This document shows, piece after piece, positions 15,952 through 52,874 of a stretch of 64,000 nucleotides of DNA (positions are counted from its first letter, which is position 1; each line of letters begins with the position of its first letter). The DNA is from Parietichytrium sp. I65-24A (taxonomy: Eukaryota > Sar > Bigyra > Thraustochytrida > Thraustochytriidae). The stretch is from the NCBI GenBank assembly GCA_012862575.1, contig BLSF01000063.1:62001-126000 (forward strand), written 5' to 3'. The notes under the pieces were generated by a model. It was not told the DNA's origin and ran no database searches. It was given only the letters and a program-made list of their open reading frames with translations. Position numbers and translations under genes: made by a program.

Positions 15952-17457
15952 CTATCCTTTTGTATTTGTCGCAGCTGAAGACACGACGGCTTGAACCTTT
16001 GTTGGGTTGTCTGGCGCACAGAATTCACCATTTGCATAGGCATTCATGCCTCGCGCAATTATCAAAGCGATATTAAAAAGAATGTACACTGCAGGGTATT
16101 CCAGATAGAAGGTTCCAATCGTTGCAGCGGCATAGGTTACGAGCATGACCATCGAGGATATGATAGAGATCTTAACACACTTGACCAATCGTCTTAAAAA
16201 CCTTTTTTGAGCCTCTAAGAGGGCCTGTTTGGTCTTTGACAACTCAATCACCATGTCCACCTGATACATCATTGCTCGCGTGGACCTCCACAAGAAAATT
16301 ATGATGGATACCTGGGAGAGAAACATTAGTCCTGCCATAATCTGATAGCCCAGCTGGCCTTGCACTTTCAGGTCACTGGCAATCAAGGCCAAAGCGGGGT
16401 CGACCAAAATTAGGAAAACCGTACCGACGGCCAGAAGAATCTGCGTGTTCCGCACCTTTCCTGCAGATAGACTGCGCAATTTGCTATGCTGGATCGCACT
16501 GACCCAGAGAGAACCAATCAAAAAGTCGCAAGCACAACTCACCCCGGCCAACAAAGACCGAAAACTCAACACCGTCACCGAGCTGAATTTTCCACGGGAG
16601 GCATAACCATCCAGAGATAGCATTACGGCGAGAAAGTACATCATGGCTATGTTCAAGATATACGCCGCCGCGACCCTGTGAATTGCGGCACTGTTACGCT
16701 TGCGTAGACGAAGCAACAAAACCAAATTTCTACTTCCAATCGCCACGTAGAAGAGCGGTGCGATGCCTTGAAAGAACATGCGATACCAGACAGTGTCGTA
16801 AATTTCGTTCATCACGTTCTCGTCAATGTCAACCTTCATCACAAAGGACGAGGTGTTCCCGCCTTGAGAGAGTGTCGAATTCAAGGAATTGACAAACTCC
16901 AGAAGCTCATCGGTCATTCCTGTGTGCAAGAACGCGGTAGTTACTTTAGGGAGGAGGAAATCCGAAACGTCGCCGCCAACTTGAAGGCGTGACCAGTATT
17001 TGAGCTCGTGAGCTTGCATGGAGCCTTCCTCAAGCACAAATAGAAAGTCAGTGTCCCAGAACCAGAGAATGATCGGAATTTTCCACCGCCACGTCCAATA
17101 CGGATTCATCCCACAGGGATAATTTTGTACTGCCCCCCACATGATCACCACCTCGTCCTGGTGCCTCGAACGGAACGGCGTCTTGTCTTTCAGGGCAATC
17201 GTCTCCAGGTCGGCGTCCAACATGGTCTCATACAGTTCGCATAGCAGCTCCATGTCTTGTTCATCAAACAGCGCCGCTGACTTGTTAATCTGAACGCCCG
17301 GCCCAAGGCCGACATTCTCGTGCGTCTGCAGCACCACATCCCCATGTTCAACGCTGCTCCCATTCGGCCAGACCAGCGTAGCGCCGCTCTGCGCGCTCGG
17401 CACCGACCCTGCCAACGCCAACGCTGCCACCCCGAGCGCCGCGCTCACTCGCCGCAT
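15952..17457 (-). CDS. 7TM-A: signal peptide, ectodomain and seven-helix membrane protein
   Basis: The protein is 501 residues long and the family is not recognised. Residues 1-24 are a signal peptide. The ectodomain (25-225) carries the family motifs WPNGS (an N-glycosylation sequon), LQTHENVG, LFDEQD..LLCELYE and PCGMNPY.TWRW, ending in YRMFFQG at 225-231. Seven hydrophobic segments follow at about 228-250, 263-283, 298-320, 337-360, 368-389, 428-450 and 454-472. Landmarks are LDGYASRG after helix 2, SCACDFLIGSLW in helix 3, VDPALAL in helix 4, FLWRSTRAMM after helix 5 and NAYANGEFCAP after helix 7. With the N-terminus outside, the short tail is cytosolic. Its closest relative in the window looks like 7TM-E, on the other array: both share G.VQN.PC.MNP and DAQKRFL or EAQKRFL. 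First of four minus-strand copies. Confidence 0.87.
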   Translation of the reverse strand: MRRVSAALGVAALALAGSVPSAQSGATLVWPNGSSVEHGDVVLQTHENVGLGPGVQINKSAALFDEQDMELLCELYETMLDADLETIALKDKTPFRSRHQDEVVIMWGAVQNYPCGMNPYWTWRWKIPIILWFWDTDFLFVLEEGSMQAHELKYWSRLQVGGDVSDFLLPKVTTAFLHTGMTDELLEFVNSLNSTLSQGGNTSSFVMKVDIDENVMNEIYDTVWYRMFFQGIAPLFYVAIGSRNLVLLLRLRKRNSAAIHRVAAAYILNIAMMYFLAVMLSLDGYASRGKFSSVTVLSFRSLLAGVSCACDFLIGSLWVSAIQHSKLRSLSAGKVRNTQILLAVGTVFLILVDPALALIASDLKVQGQLGYQIMAGLMFLSQVSIIIFLWRSTRAMMYQVDMVIELSKTKQALLEAQKRFLRRLVKCVKISIISSMVMLVTYAAATIGTFYLEYPAVYILFNIALIIARGMNAYANGEFCAPDNPTKVQAVVSSAATNTKG

Positions 17458-17940
17458 CGCCAGGCCAATTTTCGCGCCTCCCAGACCTCACAAACCTGGC
17501 AAACGTTTGCCCTTCTTTCGCGCTGCACTCAGTTCCTTCAGCTCGGACCGAGCTAGGTGTCCTCGCGTGCGACTTGCTCCCTCACCCGTGCACGAAATGC
17601 TCCATCTTGCTACTTTATCATTTTCCCTAGCTACTCGCTACACCCCTCGTAGTCGAGCCAATAATCGCGATGTCTTCTGAGGTGCAGCAACCTGTCAGCA
17701 CTGTCAGCACCCGTCGCCTAGTGTTTGGAGTAGCTGACGCTATTGGGTCAACGGATAGTTTTGTATGTTGGTTGGAAAGGGAGATAGGGAGATAGGGAGA
17801 TTTGAGAAGAGAGTGAAGGAGAAGCGGGAGAGATGGGAATATGAAGGTGGGAAAGAGAAGAACGTGCTGGAAGGAGGAGCGAATGGCCACGCGAATCAGT
17901 GCTGTGCAAGCAGTTGCGAATGATGGTGGGGATTGGAGGT
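17458..17940. other. Spacer between 7TM-A and 7TM-B
   Basis: No gene. It should hold the promoter of 7TM-A near 17458 and the 3' end of 7TM-B. A purine-rich repeat (GGGAGATA units) lies at about 17780-17805. No TATA box or terminator stands out. Confidence 0.5.
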
Positions 17941-19491
17941 TTATGTGGAGTCTGTGGGCGATGCGAGCTTGCAATTGACCCATTTGTTGGTGGCTTGCCG
18001 AGTAGCTGATTTGTCCGTCACCGACTGGACCTTTCCGGAGGACTTCTCTGGAGCGCAGAACTCCCCGTTTGCGTAGGTGTTACACGCCCGGCTGAAAACC
18101 ATTACAGCATTAATGAGGATGTGTACGGTTGGGTGTGCCAAATAAAAAGTCCCCATGGCAGCGGATATGTAACTCAAGATCATCGTGACGGATGCAGCTA
18201 CCGAAATTCGAATACAGCGAATTAGTTTTCGGAAGAACTTCTGCTGTGCTGCTGCCATTGGCGTTGAAGACTGGCGAGCGCTCGACGTGTCCAGCGCCAA
18301 GTCGATGATCCTTAACAAGGCTTTGGTCGAGCGCCAAAGGAAAATGGACATGCCGGTCTGCGCAAGGACAAGAAAGCCTGCAATAAGTCTGTTGGCAAAT
18401 TGGGCATCCGCTTTCAGATGGCTTCCCACGAGAGCGAGAGCCGGGTCCACTAGCAATAATAGTCCGGTGAAAGTGGAAAGAACACCTTGTATAATTTCTT
18501 CTTTCTTCCCGTCAGTGTGTCCTTTCCTCCGAATACTTCCCACAGCAGTCAGCCAAATAGACCCGATTATAAAGTCGCATGCAGAACTAGTCCCCCCAAG
18601 CAATGGCCGAAACGCAAGAGTTGTCACGTCGCTGAAGTGATTCCTAGACGCGTATCCATCGTATGCAAGCACGGTCGCCAGCATAGTCATCATACCAAAG
18701 TTCAGAATATGGGTTAGTATGGCTCTGCTCTTGGCCGGACTGCGGCTCCTGAGTTGATGCCCGAGCAGATAAATATTGCGAAATCCAATCAATATATACA
18801 AGAACGGAGCAAACCCTTGAAAGTAAAAGCGATAAAGAACGGTGTCATACATCACTGTCACTGGATTTACGTCGATTGCGTCGATGAGAATTCGAAATTC
18901 TCCTGTTGGCGATCCAGATTCCAAGTCCTTCAAAAATTCAGGAATGTTTCCTTCCAAGACGGTTTGCAAATATGCTGAACGAAAATCTGGAAACGCATAC
19001 TCGGTGTATGTGCTGTGAGGCTTGATGCGGACCCAGTACTTGAATTCTCGTGACTCTGTCATATTAGTGTCAATCGCGAACAAAATGTCGGTGTCCCAGA
19101 AGTAAAGGAGCGCAGGAACAACCCATTTCCACGAGTAATACGGATTAATGCCACAAAGTGTCTTCAACTTTCCATAGGACAGAAGAACAAGAGACCCCTG
19201 ATGCCTGTTTCTCGTTTCGCTGACGTTGAGTGACTCGAAAGTGTCCAAGCCAGCCAAAACCGTGGCTTCGTAAATCTTGCATAAGAGATTTTCGTCTTCT
19301 TCGTCGAACGCTGCAACCGTCTTGTTAATCACGGACCCTGGCCCAAGGCCGAGGCCGTCGTGAGTCTGCAAAACCAACCCGTCGTGCTCCAGACTTGAGC
19401 CATTTGGCCAGGTGAGCCTCGTCCTGCCGCGCACTGGAGCAACTTGAGAAGCTGCAAGGAGCAAGCTTGCCTTCAGAGCTGGCAACCTCAT
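17941..19491 (-). CDS. 7TM-B: paralog of the seven-helix family
   Basis: The protein is 516 residues long. The signal peptide ends near residue 22 (VAPVRG). The ectodomain has WPNGS, LQTHDGLG, FDEEDENLLCKIYE, LCGINPYYSWKW and YFWDTDILFAI; YFQG falls at about 223-226, the same place as in the other copies. The membrane part keeps YDGYASR, SSACDFIIGSIW, LLLLVDPALAL, FLWRSTKALL, GTFYL and NTYANGEFCAP. The loop between helices 5 and 6 is longer than in 7TM-A and rich in Ser, Ala and Gln. The tail is Lys/Ser/Thr rich and ends in SPTDST. The two ectodomain cysteines (LLC, LCGIN) are kept and could form a disulphide (inference). The ATG at 19491 is the first codon of a good signal peptide. Confidence 0.86.
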   Translation of the reverse strand: MRLPALKASLLLAASQVAPVRGRTRLTWPNGSSLEHDGLVLQTHDGLGLGPGSVINKTVAAFDEEDENLLCKIYEATVLAGLDTFESLNVSETRNRHQGSLVLLSYGKLKTLCGINPYYSWKWVVPALLYFWDTDILFAIDTNMTESREFKYWVRIKPHSTYTEYAFPDFRSAYLQTVLEGNIPEFLKDLESGSPTGEFRILIDAIDVNPVTVMYDTVLYRFYFQGFAPFLYILIGFRNIYLLGHQLRSRSPAKSRAILTHILNFGMMTMLATVLAYDGYASRNHFSDVTTLAFRPLLGGTSSACDFIIGSIWLTAVGSIRRKGHTDGKKEEIIQGVLSTFTGLLLLVDPALALVGSHLKADAQFANRLIAGFLVLAQTGMSIFLWRSTKALLRIIDLALDTSSARQSSTPMAAAQQKFFRKLIRCIRISVAASVTMILSYISAAMGTFYLAHPTVHILINAVMVFSRACNTYANGEFCAPEKSSGKVQSVTDKSATRQATNKWVNCKLASPTDST

Positions 19492-20122: not shown

Positions 20123-21661
20123 CTAGCGGTCGGCGTCGGATGTCTTGGTGACCCTAGACGCAGTGACCTTGGACGCAGTGGTCTTGGATGCAGCGCTGGA
20201 AACCAGGTTGTTACAGGTAACAACTTTCGCTTTCCTCCTGTCCGGAGCACAAAACTCGCCGTTTGCGTAGGTATTCAGTAAGCGCGAAGCGACCAACAGC
20301 GCGTTGAGCGAGACGTAGATGGGCGGATCCAAATAGAAGGTGTGCATGGCCGCCGCTCCGTAGAGGAACAAGAGTGTGACGGAGGAGAGCACCGAGAGAC
20401 GGAGACAGTAGATCAGGCGGTGTAAAAACGCCTTTTGCTTTTGCGCAATCCTTTCCACAGGTGCGTCAATGTCCAAAGTGTTCATCATGGCTTTGCTTGA
20501 CCTGTAAAGAAAAACCACTATAGCAGATTGGAACAAGAATAAAACCGCTCCAACAATGGAGTATGCAGTCGTTCCGCCAGCTCGCAACTGCGTGATGATG
20601 ACCGTCAATATAGGATCAACACACAGCAATAATACAACAGCTGCGTTCAGAACCCTTCGTGTTAGTGGAGAACTCTTCACCTTCCACTTGCTGACGCGGA
20701 TCCGCTCTAATGCGCTTAACCAGAGAGACCCAATGATAAAGTCGCCCGCGCAGCTCGTTCCTGCAAAAAGCGTTCTGAACACAAACGAAGAAACCAAGCC
20801 AAGAACACCACGCGACGCATATCCGTCAATAGCGAGGACCACCCCGAGCGACCACATCATGCACAGATTAATGCCTAACGATAAAAGCATCAATTTTCTA
20901 ACTCCAGAGGGGCTGCTGAAACGAAGGTACAGCAAATAAAAGTTTCGCGCTCCGACGGCGAAATAAGCAAACGGAAAGAGGCCTTGAAAGAAGATCCTGT
21001 ACACTGCCGAATCATACATTGCCGTCAGCACGTTCGAGTCTATAGGGTCTACGTTAACTTTGAAACCATCGGAATTCGTCTCGCTCACTCGAATGGCGTC
21101 AAGAAACTGGAGTAAAGGCTCGCTTTCGACGGTTCTTAAATAGGCTCTTGTGAAATTTGTGAATACCTGATTCATAAGGCTGGTGTCCATCCAAAGCCTC
21201 GCTTGAAACGGAATCTCTCTCGCTTGTGACGAATCTGCTGGTAAGTAGAAGATCACATCAGTATCCCAAAGATGAAAGATGACCGGTATTCTCCATCTCC
21301 AATTGTAATATGGATTCATCCCGCATGGCATATTGCGCTCGTCATCGCTAATCAGCAGAATCTTGCCTTTGTGCCGCTTGCGAGAGCTAGAGAGATCCAC
21401 CTGCGGGAGGCTCTTCAAATCCGTGCTGAAGAATTTGTCGTACATCTCGCACAGCAACAGCTCGTCTTCTTCATCAAATAACGCCACATTAGCAGAGAGC
21501 GTCGTCCCCTCTTGCGGCCCAACATCTTCGTGCGTTGCGAGTACCTGAAGTGAATGCTCGGCGGTACTTCCGTTCGGCCAGATCAAAGTCGTGGTTGCTT
21601 TCGATGCAACTCCGAGCGTGCTCGCCGTGGCGGCCAGCAGCAGCCATTGCGGAGCTGGCAT
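20123..21661 (-). CDS. 7TM-C: paralog of the seven-helix family
   Basis: The protein is 512 residues long with a signal peptide of about 22 residues (LGVASKA). The ectodomain reads WPNGS, LATHEDVG, LFDEEDELLLCEMYD, PCGMNPYYNWRWRIPVIFHLWDTD (listed in overlapping pieces of the same stretch) and DPIDSN. FFQG is at about 224-227. The helices keep IDGYASRG, TSCAGDFIIGSLW, LLCVDPIL, FLYRSSKAMM, HTFYL and NTYANGEFCAP. It is most like 7TM-D: both share DSSQAREIP in the ectodomain and AAAMHTFYL before helix 7. The tail is basic and Ser/Thr rich, with repeated TASKVTASRVTK. Role unknown; the layout suggests a surface receptor. Confidence 0.87.
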   Translation of the reverse strand: MPAPQWLLLAATASTLGVASKATTTLIWPNGSTAEHSLQVLATHEDVGPQEGTTLSANVALFDEEDELLLCEMYDKFFSTDLKSLPQVDLSSSRKRHKGKILLISDDERNMPCGMNPYYNWRWRIPVIFHLWDTDVIFYLPADSSQAREIPFQARLWMDTSLMNQVFTNFTRAYLRTVESEPLLQFLDAIRVSETNSDGFKVNVDPIDSNVLTAMYDSAVYRIFFQGLFPFAYFAVGARNFYLLYLRFSSPSGVRKLMLLSLGINLCMMWSLGVVLAIDGYASRGVLGLVSSFVFRTLFAGTSCAGDFIIGSLWLSALERIRVSKWKVKSSPLTRRVLNAAVVLLLCVDPILTVIITQLRAGGTTAYSIVGAVLFLFQSAIVVFLYRSSKAMMNTLDIDAPVERIAQKQKAFLHRLIYCLRLSVLSSVTLLFLYGAAAMHTFYLDPPIYVSLNALLVASRLLNTYANGEFCAPDRRKAKVVTCNNLVSSAASKTTASKVTASRVTKTSDADR

Positions 21662-22896: not shown

Positions 22897-24414
22897 CTAG
22901 CCGGGTTGAATCGCTTTGTTGGAAGATGAGGCTTTTGTTGTGCTCGTCAAGGCGACTACTGACCTCCTTGTCCGCGATACTTGCGGGGCGCAGAATTCGC
23001 CGTTGGCGAAGGTGTTAGTGGCCCTGCAAAACAAGAGCAAAACGTTAAAGAACACGTAAACTGGGAGGTGGAGGTAAAATGTGTGCATTGCAGCAGCAGC
23101 ATACATGAGAAGCATACACAGAGAAGATCCTATAGATATCCGCAGACAAAAAATAAGCCGTTTCATGAAGAGCTCTTGCACCTGTTTCCCCGAGCGCTCA
23201 TTGGCGTTGACAGAAATCTGTAGAAGCGACAACATTGCTTTGGTCGTTCTCCAGAGAAAGACTATTATCAGGCCTTGGAAAAGAAAAAGCACTCCTGCTA
23301 TTAGCATGTAGGCCATAGACCCCCCAGTCCGCAACGTTTTGACAACGAGTCCGAGCGCTGGGTCGACAAGAAGCAAAAGTACTGAGCAGACCAACAGAAA
23401 AAAATGAACGCTCCGCGAGTAGGACAGATCTTTTCGTGCACGCTTGACCCGCTTTATGGCACTCAGCCACAGAGACCCGATTAAGAAGTCGCCGGCGCAG
23501 CTGGTTCCGGCGAGCATTGATCGCAGAATGAGGGCATCTACGATATCAAAAGCTCCCCTTGACGCATAGGCGTCGAGAAACAAAAGTACTGCGAGCGTAA
23601 ACATCATCGAGACATTAATGATGTGCGAAAATACCACTCGGAGATTTCCCTCACCGTGCCCGCTGCGTCTCTTGACCAAAAGCTGCAGATTTCGAAGCCC
23701 TAAGCAGATGTACAAGACGGGAAAGAATCCCTGAAAGATCGCACGGTACCAAGCGGAGTCGAAAACTAAAATGGCCCCATTGACGTCAATTGGATCAATC
23801 GCGATGGTGTAGTTTCCTGCGCTGTGATTCGAGTGCGAGCGAATGGACTCGATGAAAGTCAAGAGGGAGTCTGAGTCCGGCGTCCTCAGATACGCCTTGG
23901 AAAAATTTGCAAGCACCCGAGTCATGAGCTCGGTTTTCATGCGCAGACGTGAAGAGTAGGGGATTTCACGAGCTTGTGATGAGTCCCTCGGGACATACAA
24001 GAGAAAGTGCGCGTTCCAAAAATGAAAGATGACTGGAAGTCTCCACCGCCAATTGTAAAATACATTCATTCCGCATGGAATGGCAAGGTCGTCGTCATTG
24101 AGAAGTACTAGTCCTTCCGGGTGCCGAGATCGGTATTTTGAAGTGTCCAGCGAGAGCAGCGTTTCCAAGTCTGCATCAAAATAATTCTCATAGAGGGCAC
24201 AAAAGAGCCTTGTGTCTTCTTCATCAAATAGGGAAACAGTCAAGTTCAACACTTCGCCAAACTGCGGGCCGATCCCTTCGTGCGCAGCGAGCACCTCACT
24301 GGGATGAAGCGCGAAGCTCCCATTCGGCCAGATGAACGCCGTGCTCGCTTCTCCTGACCGCTGGAGAAGTGAACACAGCACCAAGCCGAGTGCATATTTT
24401 GCCCGCCCACCCAT
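22897..24414 (-). CDS. 7TM-D: paralog of the seven-helix family
   Basis: The protein is 505 residues long with a signal peptide ending near SGEAS (residue 24). The ectodomain carries WPNGS, LAAHEGIG, LFDEEDTRLFCALYE, PCGMNVFYNWRWRLP and DPIDVN. IFQG is at about 226-229. In the membrane part it keeps LDAYASRG (Ala for the usual Gly), TSCAGDFLIGSLW, LLLVDPALGL, FLWRTTKAML, HTFYLHLP and NTFANGEFCAP. The loop between helices 3 and 4 is basic. The tail is about 30 residues, Ser/Thr rich. Last of the four minus-strand copies; about 750 bases separate it from the CoaE-Nudix gene on the same strand. Closest visible relative is 7TM-C. Confidence 0.87.
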   Translation of the reverse strand: MGGRAKYALGLVLCSLLQRSGEASTAFIWPNGSFALHPSEVLAAHEGIGPQFGEVLNLTVSLFDEEDTRLFCALYENYFDADLETLLSLDTSKYRSRHPEGLVLLNDDDLAIPCGMNVFYNWRWRLPVIFHFWNAHFLLYVPRDSSQAREIPYSSRLRMKTELMTRVLANFSKAYLRTPDSDSLLTFIESIRSHSNHSAGNYTIAIDPIDVNGAILVFDSAWYRAIFQGFFPVLYICLGLRNLQLLVKRRSGHGEGNLRVVFSHIINVSMMFTLAVLLFLDAYASRGAFDIVDALILRSMLAGTSCAGDFLIGSLWLSAIKRVKRARKDLSYSRSVHFFLLVCSVLLLLVDPALGLVVKTLRTGGSMAYMLIAGVLFLFQGLIIVFLWRTTKAMLSLLQISVNANERSGKQVQELFMKRLIFCLRISIGSSLCMLLMYAAAAMHTFYLHLPVYVFFNVLLLFCRATNTFANGEFCAPQVSRTRRSVVALTSTTKASSSNKAIQPG

Positions 24415-25167: not shown

Positions 25168-26472
25168 TTATAATTTGCCGTCGCCGGACTGAGAGAGGTA
25201 TGTCTTGAAAGCTGCCAAACCGCTTGGTAAGAAGTCTTTCTCTGGTGCTGTAAGAATTTCGGCTATTGTCATCAAGCGGACTTCAGCAACCTCTTCCTCC
25301 TGTAATTTCAATTCTTCGACCGGAGTAGCTATGTCTGCGGTAAACACTGCTCCCCAAGTCTTTCCCTCCAGTTTATTCTGGTGGTAAAACTTGCTTAGAT
25401 AGCGAGGCTGAAGTTTGAGACCCATCTCTTCTTCCATCTCACGGACAATGTTCTTCTCGTACTCTTCCCCTGCACCAACAACTCCTCCAGGCGCAGGGTC
25501 CCAGAGCCCTGGCCCGGTCGCTTTCCTGTCAGCACGGCGCTGAACGTAAACCCGACCACTGGGGGCGTTTATGATGACAACATAGCTAGTGCGACAGACT
25601 AGGTCGAAAGCGTTTGCCGTCCCACGTTTCGCGGTGTAGAGAACTGCGTCCTCCTTCTCACTCACGATGTCAATCGTCTCCAGAGCAGAGAGCTTGTTGT
25701 AGCGCTGCAAGAGCTCTGCGACGCAAGTCTCGAGCTTGGATTCGAACATTTCCTTGTCGCCGTCATTCACTACTTCAACATGCGCATGCTTACTTCTCTC
25801 TTCGTTCGTAAGCTGAGAGTCGATCCGCTTTAAAGCATCCTCTTCACTCAAGCTGTTCCGACTCATGAGCCTTTGCTTGGCAATTTCCCGTGGCGCGCTT
25901 AATATCCAGACCTCATCGACGAGATCCATCCATTTGGCCTCGATCATAACGGCAGCCTCTAGCACGACAATATTGAGTGACTCGGAGTCCTTCGGAAGGC
26001 CTTCGCAATACTCTTCGATTTTGACTTTAAGCAATGATCGAATTGCTGGCCAAACGATACTATTGAGCATCTGCATCTCCTTTGGATCCGAGAAAACAAT
26101 GCTGCCAAGCACCTTTCTGTCCACTGTCCCGTCCTCTTTATTTATAATCCGCTCGCCAAAGTGCTCGACCATCTTTTGGAGGCATTCTGTCCCAGGCTTG
26201 TAAGCTTCATGTCCAAAGAGATCCGCATTGAACACTTTTGAGCCAGCAGTCTTCTCAAGCAACTCTGTCGCAGTGGTCTTCCCCGCGCAGATTCCGCCTG
26301 CAACCATCTCACATTCTGTGTCAGCGGGCCCCCTTTCTCCCCCTTCCCCTTCGCCTCCTTCCCCAGCAGCAAAGAAACCCGCTTTGGCTGCTGTCTCTGT
26401 CCTTCACAGCCACTCACCGGAAAGGCCGACCACCACCGCATTCGCCGGAGTCCGGAATGCGCTGCTCGCCAT
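25168..26472 (-). CDS. Dephospho-CoA kinase fused to a Nudix hydrolase (one intron)
   Basis: Joining exon 1 (26472-26418) to exon 2 (26297-25168) gives 394 residues. Exon 1 encodes only MASSAFRTPANAVVVGLS plus one base. Exon 2 opens with GGICAGKTT, so the junction restores VVVGLSGGICAGKTT, the P-loop of CoaE. The intron is 120 nt, GTGAGT to TTGCAG. Residues 14-215 are dephospho-CoA kinase, which phosphorylates the ribose 3'-OH of dephospho-CoA, the last step of CoA synthesis. NADLFGHEAY and ILSAPREIAKQRLMSRN fit that family. Residues 250-385 are a Nudix domain with a perfect box at about 290-312 (G-x5-E-x7-REMEEEMGL) and VYVQRRADRK before it, as in YfcD-like or IPP-isomerase-like Nudix proteins. 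The Nudix part may trim CoA-type nucleotides or an unrelated diphosphate; this is inference. Confidence 0.88.
26298..26417 (-). other. Spliceosomal intron of the CoaE-Nudix gene
   Basis: The intron is 120 nt, with donor G|GTGAGTGGC and acceptor GGTTGCAG|GCGG on the minus strand. Splicing is in phase 1. The case rests on restoring the CoaE P-loop exactly and on the summed exon length being divisible by three. The unspliced frame lacks the first strand and start of the P-loop. Confidence 0.85.
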
Positions 26473-28039: not shown

Positions 28040-28054
28040 TACTAGGGAGTCACG

Positions 28055-28635: not shown

Positions 28636-31600
28636 CTAGCGACGAACGCGATGATGCCGTTTGCACCCGCACATCTCGCATTGGGGCAGGAATCGGATTC
28701 GATCGTTGTTGTGGTTGCAGACTCTGCACGTCCAGAGTCCAAATTTCTGGAACTCCACCTCAGGATCCAAAGCAGGTGTCGCGCTCGCCGAAGAAGCGGA
28801 AACCGATAGTGAAGGGGCGACTCTCGAATTGGCCGCTTGAGCAGTGAGTATGGGTTCTGCGCGGCCGAGGCCGCGAAGAAGATGAGTCAACTTTGCCTTC
28901 TCGCTGACAGAGACGGTAGACGACCCAAGCCATCGCTGGACATTTTGTGGGTTCCAGGTTTGATCGACACCCGGTCGCTGGGCGCTGGCGTACACTGGTT
29001 TGGCGAGTTTGGAGAAAATTCCTCCCGGTCCGCCAGAACGAACAATGTCACGAAGAAAGTCTTGGTAAACGACATTTCCGGCCAAAGTAATATAACCCAT
29101 ATAGTCGGCTAGTTGCAGTGCCTCGATCTGGCTGCACGGCAAGTACAGGTCGTACACAGCCTGCAAAAATTGTTTCACGGTGACTTTGCCATCTTTATTC
29201 TCATCGTACCTCTCAAAGACATGGGAGGGAGCTGATGGCGAGTTCAGCAGTCTATCGCGAACACCATTAGCGATTCGAGCGAGCTTTGAGAAATGTTCAT
29301 CGTTATTTGCAGCACCTTCCGAGTGGACACATGCGTTAAGCGACACATAATCGAAGGCGTCCCTGCCATCCAGGTCGAAGGCATCAAGAACTAGTTGCAA
29401 ATCTTTCTGACTCAAGACGCCAGGAACGATATCAGCGTCCTTCAGAGCTCGTATTGCATCTCTTCGGCTTACGTATCCAGTACCAAAAGCATCATGAGGG
29501 ACGAAGAGTGTCCGAACATCAAGTTGACCCCCGCCGACCGCAGAGCAGAGCCGCAAGTGTGAAGACAGCTTGGTGCCTAATTCGCCAAGTTGCTGAAACG
29601 ACGGTGCGATGCATTTGCAAAATCGCTCATAGTCAACCTCGCCTTGAACATCACTGGAAGCAAACCATCGAGCGATCAAATTGAATTCGGCTTCGGACAC
29701 CACCGCTCCAAGCTGCATTTCATCAAAGATGACGTTACGCATGCACTCCACCGAGATGGTTCCGTAGCCATGCTCATCCTTTTCACGAAACAACTCCCAG
29801 TAATGTCTCGTAGAGTCGGCACCGGAAACCTGCCTTTGTGCGACAATTCGGATTCTCTCCAGGATAGCGAAAATCTCGGCTAGCTCGACCTTTGGCCTCT
29901 GAACGAAAAGCTCCTGAAAGTCCCTGTCACAATACCGAACTGTGTTCTGCTCGGTTGCAAATCGCCTCATGAGAATCTCGCAGACAGCACTCCGAAGGCG
30001 TGGAAACTGGTGTTGAAATACTTTTCTAAATGTCGTTCGCGGAAGCTCGCCATTCCCATCCTCGTCGGCCAGCTTGAACGACTCCAGAGGCGCAGAGGCG
30101 CCTCCGGGAATGACCGGCTCGACCTGCTCCAGCAACACTTGATGAATTTCTTTTCTCGCTGCAAGAAACTCATCTTCGGTAACTCGGCTTCCCGCCACTC
30201 CAAAAAGAAAAGATCGGGTAGCCTCGAATAAAGTGTTAGATGGCGGTGCTCGGCTCCTCAAGAATACGCGATTCGCAAACTGCCTCGCAAGTTTGTCATC
30301 CCCACTGTCTACAGCCCTTGCCTCCTTTGTCAGTCGCTTAAGTGCACGGATCAGATCCCGAGGGCTGAAGCTAACTCTGTCCAGCTCCTCTCTGTATGTA
30401 TCGCAGTGCAAAAGAACATCTTCCTCAAGCCGCGTGGCGCTAACGCCTCGAGCGATTGCTTTTTGTGCAGATGCTCGGGCAAGATCCAGAAGGCAATCTG
30501 TAAAGTAATGCTCAGTTGTCGCGATGTCGCTGAGTGGCCAGAGTACCTGTAACAGCGAAGAGCGGCTGAGTAAATATTCGTGCCCGGCTGCACGAGCCGC
30601 AGAAAAGAGCGTCTCAAGCATCTCTTGGCTAAATTTAATCGCTGCCTGGGACAGTACATCCTGAAAGGTTTTGGGCGACACATCCTCGTCTTTGTAGGAA
30701 AGCAAAAATTGCCGAACTGGATGCGGGTTACGCTGCACCTCAGCCCTAATTCTCGACCAAACCGCTTTAACTTGGCCCGCAGCGCTGGGCATCATTGGGG
30801 TATTGACATGATTGACTTTGCGCCGTCTTGGGCTGGAAAGCCAGTTCGTCTCATCAAAGTCGTAGTCTTCATCGTCAGAATCCGAAGATGATGAGACTTC
30901 GTCCTTCGTCTCCACTTGCTTGCTTGCAATGCGCGAAGACTCGCTTTCCGAATCGGACTCACTCTCCGTGGTGCCCCCGCTCATCACATCATCTTTTTCG
31001 GCGATTAGTACTGGCGAATGAGCTTGAACGAGTTTGCGGCTTAAAGACTGTAGATCATTCGGGTAAATGAAGGCTTTGCCGGCAAATCCATGATCAGATA
31101 GAAACGAGTCTATCGCGCGATCATTCGCGATTCCAAATTTGCGAAGAGTGCTCTTGAGTCGAGCCCTGGAAACGCAAAATTTCTGTTTGTCCCTCGAGCC
31201 TTGCGGTAATCGTTTTCCAAAGAACTGAGCAAAATTCTTAACGGGGTCTCGATTGATCGGAAAGGCAGTTACAATTGCATCCACAATCGACTCTGCATTA
31301 TTCTGGACAGACGTTTGTTTTCTCTGTGCTTCTAATGTCTCTAATATGTGCTTGGTACTGCGCGTGAATCGGGAAACCTCGAAGGCCTCTTCGCCGTTTT
31401 TGTCTGTATGAAATGCCTCTGCAAACTGCTGAGAATCCCAACCGACTGATTCAAGAGCAGTGGCTGAAGCCAAAACATCCAATCGCTGCGCAAACCTTTT
31501 AGATCCTATCGTATGATTTGCACTTAGTTCGTCGCAAAAATCACTCAACTCCTTTGGCTTTTGCAGCGCGAGCTCAAGCAGGGCTCTATGCAAATCGGCT

Positions 31601-40556: not shown

Positions 40557-42104
40557 ATGATCCGGATTGCGTCTGCCCTGGTGGTGTCTCTTGCCGCCCT
40601 TGGGGGCGCGGCAGAGGCGTCCACGTCTCTGGTCTGGCCGAATGGGACGGAGGTGAGCCACGCGCCTCTCGTTCTGCAGACTCACGAAGGCATTGGAACA
40701 GGTTCAGGCTCCCGGGTCGTACGCGAGGTGGCAGTCTTCGACGATGAAGACTATCAGCTACTCTGCGAGCTTTACAGCCTGACGTTGCACCAAGGTTTGG
40801 AAGAGTTTTTGTCTGTTAATGTGTCCAGATTCAGAGCAAGACACACGGGCAAACTCGTTATCGCGCGCGATTACGTTGATCCGCCTTGTGATATTCCTAC
40901 ATTTTACAACTGGAGATGGTCGATTCCAGCAATGCTGCACTTTTGGGGCACAGATCTTCTCATTGTGCTCGATGCTGGCTCGGCAAAAGCCAGCCAGCAG
41001 TTCGTATGGGTCCGCCAAATTGTGCGCAACGATTTGACTAACTACGTGTTTGCAAACCTCAACAAGGCATACCTTCATACAACCAGCACTCCGGTTCTGG
41101 AAAGTTTCATTGCAGAGGCCCAACATTCAAACAAGACAGATTCTGACGCTTATGTGATTGAGATTGAGTCAATCGATCACAATCCGTTTGTTGATTACTA
41201 TGATTCTATTTTTTACAGGATCTTCTTTCAAGGTATCGCGCCAGCGATCTACGCCTTTGTTGGGATTAGAGACTTGAGGTTGCTCGCAACGGTGTACGCC
41301 AGTCCAACACTTGCGCGAGCTAGAGTTTGCCTTGCACTGACACTCAACGTTTGCATGATGACCACTTTGAGCGTCATCTTGGCATGGGATGCGTACTTCA
41401 CAAGGCTTCGGCTCGACATCTCCCAAGCGCTTTGTTTCCGTCCACTTTTGGCAGGAACAAGCTGCGCATGTGACTTTTTGATTGGCTCATTATGGGTCAG
41501 CGCCGTTAAACATTACAAATTATCGCTGTGGAAACAAAGTGTCGCAAGAAGAACCCAGTTTTTACTTGGAGCTGGTACTGTTGTCTTGCTCTTGGTGGAT
41601 CCAGCGATGAGTATTTTGGCAACTCAAGCAGGAGCCTCTTACTATCAACTTGTGGCAGGACTGATGTTCATAGCGCAAATGTCCATCATAATATTTTTGT
41701 GGAGATCAGCGCGCTCAATTAGACTGCTCTTGAATGTTGCCGTCGTTCCTCAAGATCGAGGCGTGTCAACACGCCAAACTCAAAACATCTTCTTGAAGAG
41801 GCTAGTTTTTTACATGCGGATCTCGATTGCCTCTTCGTGTGTCTTGCTGGTCACATATGCCATTGGAGCTACGTTTCGGGTTTACTTGACTGAGCCCCTT
41901 TTGTACGTCTGCGGAAACGGGGTTCTGGTTCTCGCACGATTTGCAAATACCTATGCAAACGGAGAGTTTTGCCGACCGAACTCTGCGCTGCAACGTAGAC
42001 GTGAGAGCCAGAGCGTGGTGAGCAAAGTAATGAGCAAAGTGGTGAGCAAGTCCAGTGAGAGTACAAAGCGGGACTCCAAGAACAGTAGATGCAACATAAG
42101 CTGA
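40557..42104 (+). CDS. 7TM-F: paralog of the seven-helix family with C-terminal CNIS
   Basis: The protein is 515 residues long with a signal peptide of about 22 (LGGAAEAS). The ectodomain carries WPNGT, LQTHEGIG, FDDEDYQLLCELYS, PCDIPTFYNWRWSIP and HFWGTDLLIVL. FFQG is at 223-226. Helix landmarks are WDAYFTR in place of DGYASRG, TSCACDFLIGSLW, LLLVDPAMSI, FLWRSARSI, and NTYANGEFCRP. The tail is unusual: it has a repeat KVMSKVVSKSS and ends SRCNIS. CNIS fits a CaaX prenylation box with Ser at X, which favours farnesyl transfer. Prenylation of the tail would fit a cytosolic C-terminus (inference). The WrbA-like protein in this window has the same last four residues. Confidence 0.87.
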   Translation: MIRIASALVVSLAALGGAAEASTSLVWPNGTEVSHAPLVLQTHEGIGTGSGSRVVREVAVFDDEDYQLLCELYSLTLHQGLEEFLSVNVSRFRARHTGKLVIARDYVDPPCDIPTFYNWRWSIPAMLHFWGTDLLIVLDAGSAKASQQFVWVRQIVRNDLTNYVFANLNKAYLHTTSTPVLESFIAEAQHSNKTDSDAYVIEIESIDHNPFVDYYDSIFYRIFFQGIAPAIYAFVGIRDLRLLATVYASPTLARARVCLALTLNVCMMTTLSVILAWDAYFTRLRLDISQALCFRPLLAGTSCACDFLIGSLWVSAVKHYKLSLWKQSVARRTQFLLGAGTVVLLLVDPAMSILATQAGASYYQLVAGLMFIAQMSIIIFLWRSARSIRLLLNVAVVPQDRGVSTRQTQNIFLKRLVFYMRISIASSCVLLVTYAIGATFRVYLTEPLLYVCGNGVLVLARFANTYANGEFCRPNSALQRRRESQSVVSKVMSKVVSKSSESTKRDSKNSRCNIS

Positions 42105-43585: not shown

Positions 43586-45109
43586 ATGATCCTGCGAGCG
43601 TGGGCACTGCTGGCAGTGCTGGGAATCTGCGCACCGCCAGTGCCAGTAGATGCGAGAACAGTGCTTGTCTGGCCAGACGGAAGCGAGGCAACGCACATAC
43701 CACTGGTGCTCCCGACTCACGAGAGCGTTGGAACCAACTCCGGCTCTGTATTGACCCGCGAAGCAGCTTTATTCGGGGATGAGGACTGGGAGTTGCTTTG
43801 CGAGTTGTGGGAAACTGGTATTAATTCGCCTGACGCATTCCTTTCGCTGAACAGGAGCAAGTATCAGGAGAGATACCGCGGCAAGATCATTGTAGAAAGA
43901 GCGACGAGCACACATTTGCCCTGTGAAATAAATGAGTATTTTGGGTGGAGATGGAAGGTGCCGGCCTTGCTCTACTTCTGGGATACAGATTTCCTGTTCC
44001 TCTTGGACGAAGACTCTCTGTCAACCCATGAGTACTTTCTCTGGAGTAGGCAGCCTGTCAGGACCGAACTCTCAACGTTTGCGTTTGAAAGGTTTTCGAA
44101 GGCTTATTTGCACACGCCGGATAGTCAGCAGATGCAAGCATTTACACAAGCTCTGCTGAATCATACCAACGAAACGTTCTCCATCTCGTTTGACCCCATC
44201 GACACAAACCCACTTTTAGGGTACTACGACTCTCCGGTCTATCGGGTCTTCTTCCAGGGCATTGCACCCGTTGCATATTTGGCCGTGGCAAGTCGAAACA
44301 TGTATTTATTTCGATTTAACTGGTCGCGAAAAAGCCCGGCAAGATTCCGCACACTGCTAGCCCACGCTCTTAATTTCTCGATGATGTACACAATCGCTAT
44401 CCTTCTTTTCGTAGACGGATACTTCTCAAGGGGGGTGTTCGACGCACCAACTTCACTCACGTTCCGCCCTCTCTTCTCTGGCGTCAGCTGCGCTTCTGAT
44501 TTTCTCGTGGGGTCCTTGTGGATTAACGCGGTCCAGCACTCGAACTTTAATAGCTTGGGCACGAAGGCAAGTGGCTTCACGCAGAGATTGATGGGATTCG
44601 GAGCTTTCATGTGCTTACTGGTGGATCCGGCGATGGCGATCAATTCATTCGAGCTACGCACAGACGGGAGTGCTGTTTATAGGAGCGTAGGTGGCACTGT
44701 GTTTTTAGGGCAGATCTTCATAATGTCATTCTTCTTCACCTCGGCGTATCAAATAACAAAGATGCTGGCGCGGGGGGTGTACCTGACTTCAACTGAGTCT
44801 TCCCAAAGAAACAAGCCCAATAGAGTGCACGTCATGACAAAACTTTTTCTCATGAAGCTCGTGTTCTACATGAAGCTTTCTGCTTTCGCCTCATGTATCT
44901 TGCTCCTGGATTACTTGGTCGCCGCCACATCAGCGAATTATTTAAGTATTCCGGCTTTTCACATAGGCATTAATTTCAGCCTCGTTGTAGCTCGCTGCTT
45001 GAATACATTTGCAAACGGCGAATTTTGCGCGCCGCAATCCCCTTCAAAAGTCCAGTCTTTAGTTTCTACTAGAGACTCGGGATTGAGCGTGGAGAAGCCA
45101 GCGTGTTGA
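43586..45109 (+). CDS. 7TM-G: paralog of the seven-helix family
   Basis: The protein is 507 residues long from the ATG at 43586, which opens a signal peptide (MILRAWALLAVLGICAPPV, cleaved near VDA). The reading frame runs 73 codons further upstream without an ATG. The ectodomain has WPDGSEATH, so the usual sequon is lost, then LPTHESVG, LFGDEDWELLCELWE, PCEINEYFGWRWKVP and YFWDTDFLFLLDE. FFQG is at about 222-225. The membrane part has VDGYFSRG, VSCASDFLVGSLW, CLLVDPAMAI, a non-standard FFFTSAYQI in place of FLWRST, and NTFANGEFCAP. The tail ends SVEKPAC. The segment after helix 5 is the most changed of the array apart from 7TM-I. Confidence 0.86.
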   Translation: MILRAWALLAVLGICAPPVPVDARTVLVWPDGSEATHIPLVLPTHESVGTNSGSVLTREAALFGDEDWELLCELWETGINSPDAFLSLNRSKYQERYRGKIIVERATSTHLPCEINEYFGWRWKVPALLYFWDTDFLFLLDEDSLSTHEYFLWSRQPVRTELSTFAFERFSKAYLHTPDSQQMQAFTQALLNHTNETFSISFDPIDTNPLLGYYDSPVYRVFFQGIAPVAYLAVASRNMYLFRFNWSRKSPARFRTLLAHALNFSMMYTIAILLFVDGYFSRGVFDAPTSLTFRPLFSGVSCASDFLVGSLWINAVQHSNFNSLGTKASGFTQRLMGFGAFMCLLVDPAMAINSFELRTDGSAVYRSVGGTVFLGQIFIMSFFFTSAYQITKMLARGVYLTSTESSQRNKPNRVHVMTKLFLMKLVFYMKLSAFASCILLLDYLVAATSANYLSIPAFHIGINFSLVVARCLNTFANGEFCAPQSPSKVQSLVSTRDSGLSVEKPAC

Positions 45110-48181: not shown

Positions 48182-49750
48182 ATGGAGCTGTGCATCGCAC
48201 GGGCCTTGTTTGTGATCATCATCATTGCGGCTGAGCTTGGGTGTGCTCAAGCAGAGAGGTCCTGGGTGTGGCCGAATGGCACCAAACTATCACACGAAAA
48301 GCTCGTGCTCCAAACCCACGAAGGAGTTGGACTAGGTACTGGCGAGACACTGGAAGGCACAGTGGCATGGTTTGACGATGAAGACAACCGGCTCCTCTGC
48401 GAGCTCTACGACTACGCATTCCATAAAGCTGACGACGAGGTAATCTTTGCGATTGACCCGAGCCCGTATCGCGCCCGCCATCCAGGAAAAATAATTGTGA
48501 AATATGATTTACATCCTTGCACGAAAGAGGCTGCATATGATCTGCGATGGGCGCCTTCCATGATCTTACACTTTTGGGGAAATAGCTTGGTGGTCCTTTC
48601 CAAGATGGACTCGCTCATGTCTCTGGAGTACAAGTTTTATGCCAGAGTGAGACTGAGCACCAGTTTCACCACCAAAGTGTTCCAAAGTCTAAATTCAAGC
48701 ACTGCTTATATTCGAACGCCTGAAACGTACGAAACAATCGAGTTCACGGATGCGCTGAGGAGCTCCAATGGCACAGAAGACTTCAATATAACGATGACGA
48801 TCGACGACAACCCTTTGGTGCTGATATACAACACTTGGTGGTACAACCTCGTATTCCGAGGAATATTTCCAGCATTCTACCTTTGCATTGCGTTCAGAAA
48901 TTTACAGCTTTTATGGAGGAGAAGGAGCAAAGCGGGAATGGCCAATACCCGTGTCATCATCGTTCATATCTTCAACACGGTCATGATGATCAGTCTAGCG
49001 ATCGTGTTGGTTGTGGAAGGTTACAACTCGCAGGGTGTGCTTGAGTCTCAGGTGGCCTACGTGATGCGGACAATGTTATCAGGAACGAGCTCTGGGAGCG
49101 ATTTCTTGATCGGATCTTTGTGGGTGAAGGTTTTGCATGATTCACGCATGCTGAAATGGTCAAAGAGAAAGTCAAAGCTTGTGCAGCTATACCTCATAGT
49201 GGTGGCGTCAACGCTGCCTCTTCTGGACCCCTTCTTGATCTATATGGCTGCGTCACAACGCTCAAGGAGTAACGCGTTGCTGTACCTTTCAACAGGGGCA
49301 CTTGGTGTCTTGGCGCAGACGTATATTCTCTTCTTTATGTGGTGGACAACAACGTTGTTTATGTCGGCGTTGCGAGAATCCGCTAAAGTCCTCAATGATC
49401 GCGTGCCAGAGCAGGAGAAAGTATTTCTCCGCCGCCTGGTTTTTTACTTGCGTATGTCAATGAGCTCCTCGGGTGTTCTGATCATAGCTTTTGCGTATGC
49501 TGGACTGTTGAGTCGGTACTATGTCACGTATGACGGGCTTTACATTTTTACAAACGTCTCGTTTGTCACTGCGAGGGGTTTGAACACGCTCGCGAACGGC
49601 GAATTCTGCGTCCCTTCCAGACCATCTGCCTCTGTTGCGCCACACAGCGGAAAGAAGAGCAGCTCGCAAACAGGACCTCGAAGCGCCAAGAAGTATGTCC
49701 ACAATGCATCTTCCCACGCCAGTTCTTCAAAGGCAAAAACAGACTCCTGA
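48182..49750 (+). CDS. 7TM-H: paralog of the seven-helix family
   Basis: The protein is 522 residues long with a signal peptide of about 24 (LFVIIIIAAELGCAQA). The ectodomain has WPNGT, LQTHEGVG, WFDDEDNRLLCELYD and RARHPGKIIV. PC.MN is replaced by HPCTKEAAYDLRW, and HFW.TD by HFWGNS. YDS..YR.FFQG becomes YNTWWYNLVFRG. The helices keep VEGYNSQG, TSSGSDFLIGSLW, STLPLLDPFLI, FFMWWTTTLF and NTLANGEFCVP. So it is clearly a member but has changed at several otherwise fixed sites. The tail is the longest typical one, about 50 residues, rich in Ser, Lys and His (GKKSSSQTGPRSAKK). Confidence 0.86.
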   Translation: MELCIARALFVIIIIAAELGCAQAERSWVWPNGTKLSHEKLVLQTHEGVGLGTGETLEGTVAWFDDEDNRLLCELYDYAFHKADDEVIFAIDPSPYRARHPGKIIVKYDLHPCTKEAAYDLRWAPSMILHFWGNSLVVLSKMDSLMSLEYKFYARVRLSTSFTTKVFQSLNSSTAYIRTPETYETIEFTDALRSSNGTEDFNITMTIDDNPLVLIYNTWWYNLVFRGIFPAFYLCIAFRNLQLLWRRRSKAGMANTRVIIVHIFNTVMMISLAIVLVVEGYNSQGVLESQVAYVMRTMLSGTSSGSDFLIGSLWVKVLHDSRMLKWSKRKSKLVQLYLIVVASTLPLLDPFLIYMAASQRSRSNALLYLSTGALGVLAQTYILFFMWWTTTLFMSALRESAKVLNDRVPEQEKVFLRRLVFYLRMSMSSSGVLIIAFAYAGLLSRYYVTYDGLYIFTNVSFVTARGLNTLANGEFCVPSRPSASVAPHSGKKSSSQTGPRSAKKYVHNASSHASSSKAKTDS

Positions 49751-50599
49751 CATTGCTGTAGACTTGCGTTGCACGTGACTTGGCCACCTTTCTGCGCTTT
49801 GGAAAGCACAAAAATCTTGCCCTACCATTTTGATGAAAAATAACAAAACATGTTCACAAGAATTATCTACAATGCTATTAATGACAAAGAGTGAGTTCAA
49901 GTCTTCCTCTTCAGCGTTCGGCTCGCGCCATGCTGCTCCAGACGCGTCACGACATGAACCAGCAGCACTTTCATTCAATTGGAGCACATCGACAAGCTGT
50001 TTCTCCCTTCGCCACCTTCGCCACTCTATCAGGACAGGAAATTTCCGCCTAGCTAGGCCTAAACAGATGGTGATCAAATCAGACGTACGTGTATCGTTTA
50101 CGGTATAAAACAACCATACCAACCCCACACCCGAGCAGCATGTCTGCCACACTTTCGCCATTGCGGCCTCTATCTATCTCCAGACAGCGTTCACAGCTAT
50201 TATCACCGTGACAGTCATCGCAATCATCGCAGCCACCCCGACCAACCAAATCGAAATCACTACACCGCTCTTCCGTGCCCCACGCTCCAAATTACCTTCA
50301 CAATCAGACACGACAAGAGCGCCCGACAGCTTCCGCAGAGCGGCCGAACGGAGCTCGGAATGACAAACGCCTGTCCAACCAACCATCTATCCAGCGCATA
50401 TCTTGGACCTGGATTGGGACAACTCAAAACTTGCAATTTACTGTCAAAGTTCTAACATTGAGTTCCAACTCCGAAGTGCAAAGTTTCATTCCATCATGAT
50501 CTATTCCATCGCAACGGATAGTTTCGAGGGAACAGTATACAAGTATATAGACAGAATCATAGCAAGACGGGACAAAATTTGGACGGGCTGATCAACCCA

Positions 50600-50621
50600 C
50601 GGACGGACGGACGGACGGACG
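50600..50621. repeat. (GGAC)n microsatellite
   Basis: Five to six GGAC units in the 7TM-H to 7TM-I spacer. Confidence 0.85.
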
Positions 50622-50816
50622 AAGGGAAAGACAGAGAGACAAAAGAGCGATTCGGTTGCGAGTAAGACGCAAAATGATATAAAACAACAAAATGATGACA
50701 TGAAGAATGAAGAATGAAGAGCAGGAACCAACATCCGTTTCGAGAGCGACTGGTCGATAGCCAGCTTGGTAAACTCTTTCACGGATTTGGAGGGCATTCT
50801 GCGAAGATTCGAGTTT

Positions 50817-50827
50817 TGACTGCGAAC
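50817..50827 (+). promoter_or_regulatory. TTGACTGYGAA spacer motif, copy 4
   Basis: Exact match (C variant), 418 bases before the 7TM-I start and in the same orientation as the gene. Confidence 0.3.
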
Positions 50828-51245
50828 TAGCAAAGCGGGAAATGGGAACTGTGCAATACGTCCAATCGGAGCGTAAAAGGCGATAGATCTCTAAAGCGGC
50901 ACTTGACTCGGTAAGTAATTTCTCGCAACAAGTTTCAACAATTTCAGGGTGAGCCCTTGCTCTCGCTGCTCAGATCGAACGTCGAAAGGGCCTAGAGAAG
51001 CGGAGAGGCGCTGCGCCTGAAAGCGAACTAGTTCATCTCGTGTGCAGCAATACTCTTCCATCGGCCACTGTTGAGCTTTGGAGCTTGGTGAGGTTGCTGC
51101 CGGTATCTGGTTGTGCAGAATCGCGCTCCAGGCGAATGGTGTGACTTGGGCAGCGATAGACAGCGAGAGAGGACACTTAGTTTTGTGAAAGTGCTAGAGC
51201 CGAGGGTCGAAGGGGAAAGCCGTCTCCAGCGGCAAGCAAACTGAG

Positions 51246-52874
51246 ATGGCGCGAAATAGAGGCCTCCTGACATGGCTTCTGGCTGCTAGCATGGCCGGCT
51301 CGGTGCAAGGAGAGACGAACCTGACGTGGTGGGACGGGAGCACCCTCGTGAGGGAGGCGCTACACAGTGAGCGGGTGTATCAAATCAGGGAAGGGGCTGG
51401 CCTGGGAGCAGGATTATCCATTACGCGAAAGCTGGAGACTTTTGATAAAGTCGACGGTGATTTGCTGTGCGAATTGTTTCGTAATAGGCCGGACACTGTC
51501 GAAGAGCTGCTGAGCTTGAATACCTCAGTATACAGGGCCAGGCACCAAGGCAACATGGTAATTCTCTATCTCACCTCTGATTTCTTTGGCTGTGGCCTGA
51601 CCAGTCATTATTTTTGGGACTGGACCGCACCAGTGATGGCTCATTTCTGGGATTCTGACATACTAATGGTTGCTCAGAGTAACGACACTAAATTTAAAAG
51701 GCTGATCCCGTACTACCCTCGATCAGCCTCCCAAGACGAGCTGCCAGTCACTGTGTTTGCGAACTATGCGCGAGCGTTTTTGCTTACGGAGGGCACCACC
51801 GAACTAGAAGAGATGATCTCCGATGCCCAAGCAGGTGTTTCGCAAGCGTTGTACATCTCAATCGATCCTATAGAAACCAGCGGGGTGGTGGACATTTTTG
51901 ACAATCCTGCACACGTACTCCTCGTGCAAGGATTAATCCCAATCTTCTATTTTCTCGTCGGACTTCGAAGTATCGCTTACACAGTCGTTCGCATAAGATG
52001 TCGAAGCCCAAGTCGCACCGCTTTATTTGCTTTGGTTTTGAATGCTCTGCTCATGCTGGTTCTTGGTGCTGTACTTGCTCTGGATGGCTATTCGTCACAG
52101 GGGAAAATGGACATTGACTTGCAGACATACTTTCGCTTTCTTTGTACAGGAATCAGCTGCGGTGTGAACTTCTTGGCGGGCTCGATGTGGCTTAGCATTT
52201 CGAGCAAAGTAAAGAAGGTTTCGTGGAGAGAAAAAAAGCAAAAGTGCTTTCATCTTGCCATGCATTCTGTCACAGTAACATTCGTCTTGGGCGACATATT
52301 TTCCTTCGCCGGATTCCTGGTATTCAAAGCTGGGTTCTCCTTCACCATAACGCTTTCAGGCTCGATTTATATGCTTGGCCAGCTATTCATCTCGGCATTT
52401 CTTCTGAAATCTACTGCGTCAGTAATGCATGCCATTCATGTCATGTCTTCAAACGCGAGCCAAAAAAGCAACGGTCCCGCCTCTTCCAGCTTTGTTCGGG
52501 ACCTCGTATTTTGGATTCGTGCATCGATTGCAAGTTCATTAATAGCGATGGGATGTTTGTGCTTGGCTATCTTTCGCGAAATCTATCTCATACCCGGGGT
52601 ATATTTTCCGACAAATTTCGTTTTTATAATCTCTCGCGGAATCAGCTCACTCGCAATTGGTGAATTTTTCGCCCCGCAATCTGTGTACTCAATAGCAAAT
52701 CCATGCGCAAGAAAATTGTGGGAGTATACTACCTTCAAGTCAGGCATGTCTATGAACGCGCGAGTCTCTGCAGCTCCAGCTCCCGTCCCAAACTTTGAGA
52801 AGCCGGCAGCTCAGGACACTATAGCGGGAACCTCAGAGTTTAAGCTTGGAGATGCCACTCCAATGTATACATAA
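51246..52874 (+). CDS. 7TM-I: divergent paralog of the seven-helix family
   Basis: The protein is 542 residues long with a signal peptide ending near AGSVQG (residue 22). It is the most divergent copy. WPNG is WWDGS, the THE motif is absent and replaced by QIREGAGLG, but FDKVDGDLLCELF, RARHQGNMVI and FWDSDIL survive, and LVQG is at about 226-229. Membrane landmarks are LDGYSSQG, ISCGVNFLAGSMW, a fourth helix without VDPA, FLLKSTASVM, and SLAIGEFFAPQ in place of NTYANGEFCAP. The tail is the longest of the family (about 65 residues), Ala/Pro/Ser rich, with KLWEYTTFKSG. It lies at the outer end of the plus-strand array. The extra divergence may mean relaxed constraint or a separate role. Confidence 0.83.
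   Translation: MARNRGLLTWLLAASMAGSVQGETNLTWWDGSTLVREALHSERVYQIREGAGLGAGLSITRKLETFDKVDGDLLCELFRNRPDTVEELLSLNTSVYRARHQGNMVILYLTSDFFGCGLTSHYFWDWTAPVMAHFWDSDILMVAQSNDTKFKRLIPYYPRSASQDELPVTVFANYARAFLLTEGTTELEEMISDAQAGVSQALYISIDPIETSGVVDIFDNPAHVLLVQGLIPIFYFLVGLRSIAYTVVRIRCRSPSRTALFALVLNALLMLVLGAVLALDGYSSQGKMDIDLQTYFRFLCTGISCGVNFLAGSMWLSISSKVKKVSWREKKQKCFHLAMHSVTVTFVLGDIFSFAGFLVFKAGFSFTITLSGSIYMLGQLFISAFLLKSTASVMHAIHVMSSNASQKSNGPASSSFVRDLVFWIRASIASSLIAMGCLCLAIFREIYLIPGVYFPTNFVFIISRGISSLAIGEFFAPQSVYSIANPCARKLWEYTTFKSGMSMNARVSAAPAPVPNFEKPAAQDTIAGTSEFKLGDATPMYT

Follow-up and report, generated by a model that had tools for sequence, protein, structure and literature searches.

A stretch of 64,000 nucleotides from the thraustochytrid Parietichytrium sp. 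I65-24A (contig BLSF01000063.1, here C63:62001-126000; this whole stretch is called the window) harbours nine intact genes in two tandem arrays, whose products appear to join an ectodomain of divergent protease-associated (PA) fold to a bundle of seven transmembrane (7TM) helices similar to that of G-protein-coupled receptors (GPCRs). The genes belong to a family, here termed PA-7TM, with at least 28 full-length members in a genome of 42.54 Mb and 172 contigs. On balance it is probably a receptor family, with the PA domain outside, a GPCR-like bundle and a short cytoplasmic tail, whose members would reside at the cell surface and sense peptides or proteins by coupling to G proteins. PA domains are familiar from proteases and from single-pass proteins, on which they bind cargo or ligands, and no receptor superfamily of eukaryotes is larger than the GPCRs. 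If this reading is true, a family of dozens of copies beside a large set of G-alpha proteins would add an ectodomain type to the GPCRs and offer a candidate, open to testing, for the way in which microbial eukaryotes sense peptides in their environment.

All nine proteins are built on one plan: a hydrophobic N-terminus is followed by an ectodomain, then by seven predicted membrane helices and finally by a short tail. The preliminary description of this DNA considered the ectodomain nearly fixed in length, and it does span 193-198 residues in 9/9 proteins. Modelled alone from a 28-row alignment, it is an alternating alpha/beta domain (predicted local distance difference test, pLDDT, 93.6; predicted template-modelling score, pTM, 0.90). 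In ectodomain numbering, its later elements are beta3 (33-40), helices, beta4 (79-84), alphaA (98-111), beta5 (114-119), helices again, beta6 (153-157), alphaC (160-174) and beta7 (183-187), the labels being our own fit to the description given for ZNRF3 (PMC3905715). It was this order of strands and helices that first suggested the PA reading, ahead of the ectodomain structure search. In that search against PDB, which gave 302 matches at E<=10, ranks 1-9 all bear titles of VSR1 or ZNRF3; for ZNRF3 complexes the matched chain is assumed, from the titles alone, to be ZNRF3. The best match, 7f2i, has an E-value of 1.8e-3 and a probability of 0.99, the top nine range from E 1.8e-3 to 4.3e-2 with probabilities of 0.44-0.99, and rank 10 drops to E 0.17. 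Strand 4 is flanked by a pair of cysteines, conserved in 27/28 members in each of the two columns, and each window ectodomain contains these two cysteines and no others. In ZNRF3 a conserved disulphide is described as linking the beta3-beta4 and beta4-alphaA loops (PMC3905715); the family pair is located at the same places in the model and is predicted to form such a bond. Model, matches and cysteines suggest a divergent PA-like fold.

The membrane part was modelled at full length with AlphaFold2 for one member, W1, the first of the nine genes, from a nine-row alignment (pLDDT 80.5, pTM 0.78). The model displays a helix at residues 2-16, corresponding to the signal peptide, and membrane helices at 223-249, 257-283, 304-324, 332-362 (with a break at 351), 367-405, 411-447 and 455-479. 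In a crude scan for hydropathy, each window protein showed 5-8 peaks, with the signal peptide counted where it passed, so that helices are missed in several of them. In 28/28 members the inner loops carry more basic residues than the outer loops, with a mean of 11.0 versus 2.8 basic residues per protein (0.20 versus 0.07 per residue), which is the direction expected for an N-terminus outside; the test leans on the W1 model, because the loops were placed by alignment to that single model. The density of N-glycosylation sequons ahead of helix 1 is about 3.5 times that behind it (1.45 versus 0.42 per 100 amino acids, aa), and the tail after the helices averages 41 aa. The W1 model and the loop charges bear out the seven helices and outward N-terminus proposed in the preliminary description. 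Neither a match to a transporter or enzyme family nor a topology of fewer than seven helices, the two outcomes that it named as contrary to its view, emerged from the searches made.

Modelling followed by structure search, as that description had advised, led from the ectodomain to PA entries and from the full W1 model to GPCRs. In the Foldseek search of PDB with the full model, all 50 matches listed, out of 1440 at E<=10, have titles of class A GPCRs; the best has E 1.8e-3 and a probability of 1.00, and template-modelling (TM) scores by target length reach 0.58 among the 50. The family also carries marks of its own. In W1 numbering and out of 28 members, these are N269 (25) in helix 2, G305 (25), W318 (23) in helix 3, D353 (25) in helix 4, Q382 (23) in helix 5, R469 (26) in helix 7 and P482 (25) just past helix 7. 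Mean column conservation is 0.30 in the ectodomain versus 0.31-0.45 in the helices, so that the ectodomain varies to much the same extent as the least conserved of them.

The preliminary description spoke of a nine-member family, a figure that proved too small. A genome search with W1 retrieved 19 places, on C63 (nine), C111 (five), C87, C32, C33, C14 and C9. Distant members used as queries added places on C110, C90, C22, C42, C114, C16 and C6, and second ones on C33 and C14, while one further search brought no new place. This amounts to about 31 places, from which 28 full-length frames of 476-547 aa were used, several of them in tandem clusters. Left out were C42, C6 and a weak place on C14 (311319-311801, E 0.004). 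The C42 frame (L018) stops around helix 3 and the C6 frame (L023), of 269 aa, stops before helix 3; we read these early ends as pseudogenes, introns or assembly errors. Comparison of 15 members, the window group among them, with 13 distant ones indicates that both parts of the protein are homologous family-wide (hhalign probability 98 for the ectodomain and 99.9 for the 7TM part). In a midpoint-rooted tree, a branch with support of 100/99 has the nine window genes on one side, and the same holds for the five from C111 (100/99). The C87 member adjoins the window group (95/90), and the three C16 members group together, as do the two of C33 and the two of C14. W3/W4 and W6/W7 are sister pairs, each inside its own array, and the highest identity in the window, 50%, is between W1 of the first array and W5 of the second; the deeper branching order of the window genes is not fixed by the tree.

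Potential signalling partners are plentiful in the same genome. G-alpha proteins gave 24 matches, 17 over the cut-off, which we joined into at least 13 loci, one with internal stops; the control gave a signal in 1/14 genomes, below the cut-off. Two G-alpha loci on C45 are in several pieces, reflecting introns or breaks. Class C receptors (7tm_3) gave 82 matches, 81 over the cut-off, or about 79 loci after neighbours were joined, and here too the control responded in 1/14 genomes, below the cut-off. This class C repertoire is very large for a unicellular eukaryote, and several of its matches are clustered, on C71, C19, C85 and C10. Given so many G-alpha and class C matches, G-protein signalling seems richly developed. 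The PA-7TM family would be a second large receptor set of the genome, a circumstantial pointer to coupling.

A mechanism can be proposed along these lines. The extracellular PA domain would bind a peptide or protein present in the environment of the cell, or present this ligand to the helices; the bundle would then change shape and activate one or more of the many G-alpha proteins. The strongly diverged tandem copies may thereby cover a range of different ligands, as is seen in other chemoreceptor families.

Trafficking factors can be seven-helix proteins with lumenal domains, and further observations likewise weigh against this reading. No PDB match fell below E 0.001, either for the full model or for the ectodomain. 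The nine PA matches have TM scores of 0.31-0.44 by query and 0.36-0.55 by target length, with a root-mean-square deviation (rmsd) of 6.2-8.6 A, and the GPCR matches reach a TM score of at least 0.50 by target length in 18/50 listed and at most 0.37 by query length. Pfam gave no match to the PA family (PF02225) at E<=5 for the nine window proteins and at E<=1 for the 28 members, limits that apply to the Pfam negatives throughout. When the 28 ectodomains were compared by hhalign with PA domains of the genome (12 of its 17 PA-domain places), the result was 24%, and 6.9% and 2.6% for halves of the family, versus 99.8% for the PA-domain halves against each other; even so, the stretch aligned in the weak 24% comparison (C ... 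GKIVL) agrees in position with the predicted fold. The cargo loop of VSR1 is given as 95RGDCYF100 (PMC12796998). This RGxC loop is absent from the family, and no RG stands ahead of the second cysteine in any window protein (0/9), so that binding as in VSR1 cannot be assumed. Finally, DRY is absent from helix 3 and NPxxY from helix 7 in all members (0/28); one NPxxY-type string, in the C90 member, is located in the tail by our reading.

Several other explanations share part of this evidence. The proteins might be lumenal cargo-sorting receptors of secretory or endosomal compartments, with the PA domain taking hold of soluble cargo, like that of plant VSR and RMR proteins, and the helices serving in trafficking. 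In favour of this, the ectodomain is structurally closest to a vacuolar sorting receptor and to ZNRF3, a ubiquitin ligase, and a trafficking role has been proposed for GOST-type seven-helix proteins. The PA domain of VSR1 is described as binding the C-termini of cargo (PMC12796998). However, tandem arrays of strongly diverged copies are more in keeping with sensing than with housekeeping sorting, the cargo loop RGDC is not kept, and RMR sorting receptors are described with a single membrane helix; overall we regard cargo sorting as unlikely. It seems rather improbable, too, that the family comprises GPCR-fold receptors whose PA domain is a mere cap or dimerisation module, the ligand being a small molecule or lipid within the helices. 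The resemblance of the bundle to class A receptors would fit such a ligand, as would the polar residues conserved inside the helices (N269, D353, Q382 and R469, in 23-26/28 members) and the recurring crystal dimer described for ZNRF3 ectodomains (PMC3905715), while the conservation of ectodomain and helices is neutral on the matter.

The GPCR-like outline could also be incidental, the proteins being seven-helix transporters, channels or enzymes. The modest Foldseek E-values and TM scores of the bundle, together with the lack of both DRY and NPxxY, leave room for such a view, but every one of the 50 PDB matches listed, of 1440, is a GPCR by title and Pfam returned no match above its cut-off, which makes this very improbable. 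Receptors that read peptides or proteins through a PA domain thus remain the preferred interpretation.

Sequence-based identification was uniformly negative, in agreement with the earlier statement that no known family could be recognised. Pfam yielded no match above cut-off and no trusted family for the nine or the 28 members, and in particular no match to 7tm_1 or RING. Profile searches of PDB with three family alignments (A1, A2 and A3) returned nothing trusted and no GPCR chain. The only match under E 0.01, the designed helical protein TMHC2_E (E 0.0079), extends over 81 profile positions within the helices and was put down to helix similarity. An origin from class C GPCRs found no support: the 28 members gave no 7tm_3 match, and hhalign against three of the 82 class C matches gave 8.9% with all 28 members and 1.7% with the 15 nearest. 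The PA-plus-GPCR-like family is without a named home in the libraries searched. A literature search of limited extent turned up no publication that combines a PA domain with seven membrane helices, and the main texts of GPCR surveys of choanoflagellates (PMC12716839) and social amoebae (PMC10445921) contain neither 'protease-associated' nor 'PA domain'; these sources hint that the pairing may be absent from print.

Outside this genome, a structural match was obtained from a virus. Among viral protein models, the best of 223 structural matches is A0A2I2L497 of Orpheovirus IHUMI-LCC2 (E 2.1e-6, TM 0.54/0.61). The alignment has 520 columns for a query of 501 aa and a target of 437 aa, and from this length the match appears to be about full length, with both domains matched; the rmsd is 7.7 A and the sequence identity 11%. 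A second Orpheovirus protein, A0A2I2L434 (301 aa), is a weak match of 7TM size (E 0.08, TM 0.61 by its own length). Orpheovirus was isolated using Vermamoeba vermiformis. Since the alignment with the viral protein appears to run over about the whole length, the plan may extend beyond this lineage: of the 'lineage-specific receptor-like family' proposed earlier, the receptor-like plan stands and its restriction to one lineage is doubtful. The match hints at an architecture that is shared by more than one lineage and that may have passed between hosts and viruses. More speculatively, and with considerable doubt, the family could represent an unrecognised ancient class of eukaryotic GPCRs that reads peptides via PA domains, strongly expanded here and carried by giant viruses to tap host signalling. 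Searches of IMG/VR viral contigs with alignments A1, A4, A5 and A6 produced 33, 9, 225 and 25 pattern stretches, none of them confirmed, and prokaryote genomes searched with A1 alone produced 15, none confirmed.

The nine genes, numbered W1 to W9 along the window, occupy the places and strands given in the preliminary description, each an uninterrupted open reading frame (ORF) from an ATG, with products of 498-542 residues. All are supported by ORF and alignment, W1 also by its AlphaFold model and W9 by tree and identity; the ectodomains of W2 to W9 were placed by alignment to W1, itself modelled (pLDDT 93.6). The first array, on the minus strand, consists of W1 (501 aa, 15952-17457; ectodomain, residues 24-221, at 16795-17388), W2 (516 aa, 17941-19491; 18844-19428), W3 (512 aa, 20123-21661; 21011-21598) and W4 (505 aa, 22897-24414; 23758-24348). 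The second, on the plus strand, comprises W5 (498 aa, 38162-39658; ectodomain 38234-38815), W6 (515 aa, 40557-42104; 40617-41204), W7 (507 aa counted from the ATG, 43586-45109; 43652-44230), W8 (522 aa, 48182-49750; 48251-48832) and W9 (542 aa, 51246-52874; 51309-51902). The W7 frame stays open upstream of its ATG as far as a TTG at 43367. Pairwise identity among the nine, aligned over their length, is 26-50%, W9 being the most divergent. The motifs listed earlier as shared hold as consensus strings and not letter for letter, with few copies keeping them literally: LLCELYE occurs in one of the nine, DGYASRG and FLWRST.AM in two each, NTYANGEFCAP in three, WPNG[ST] in six and ANGEFC in eight. 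Similarly, the FQG placed at 223-230 is found at 223-229 in 7/9 and is absent from the last two.

Neighbouring genes in the window are of eukaryotic kinds, among them CCDC93, Tubby, a NOC3-like protein, a proteasome subunit and a Zn(2)Cys(6) protein. At 25168-26307 (minus strand) one protein fuses a dephospho-CoA kinase and a NUDIX domain. Between the two arrays, on the minus strand, lie an EF-hand protein of 1431 aa (28636-32931) and a protein (35152-36600) whose hydrophobic N-terminus is accompanied by a cysteine-rich part and by a long repeat, rich in Lys and Glu, that is spaced mostly at 18-24 bases; a Pfam search with this protein gave no match. Elsewhere, open frames of 1965 and 5583 codons (L028 and G000:C66) match parts of the PfaA model, below the cut-off, and are probably large polyketide or fatty acid synthases.

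The family can be compared with several known systems. Proteins of the GpcrRhopsn4/GOST type (GPR180, TMEM145 and TMEM87) likewise have a signal peptide, an ectodomain and seven helices, and the preliminary description had seen a faint likeness to them. The GOST ectodomain is a beta-sandwich (GOLD-like), whereas that of the family is alpha/beta with PA matches; neither a Pfam match nor any of the 50 structural matches listed points to this group, and the identity is not supported. With the PA proteins VSR1 of Arabidopsis and ZNRF3 of vertebrates the family shares the predicted ectodomain fold, the order of strands and helices and the cysteines either side of strand 4. It differs from VSR1 in the missing RGxC loop and from ZNRF3 in that helices connect strand 3 to strand 4, a place at which a loop is described for ZNRF3 (PMC3905715). 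Unlike PA-type sorting receptors and PA-TM-RING ligases, it has seven predicted helices rather than one, no RING match and a tail of about 41 aa. The Orpheovirus protein, annotated as 'transmembrane domain-containing protein', is similar in structure over about its full length, in contrast to its low identity, high rmsd and origin in an amoeba virus. Class C GPCRs have no profile relation to the family, as judged from the three loci compared, and the family ectodomain is PA-like; like the family, they are multi-copy seven-helix proteins of the same organism. Class A GPCRs differ in that the family lacks a sequence match to any GPCR family, lacks DRY and NPxxY and bears its own residue signature, and they resemble it in the predicted arrangement of the seven helices and in an N-terminus that lies outside.

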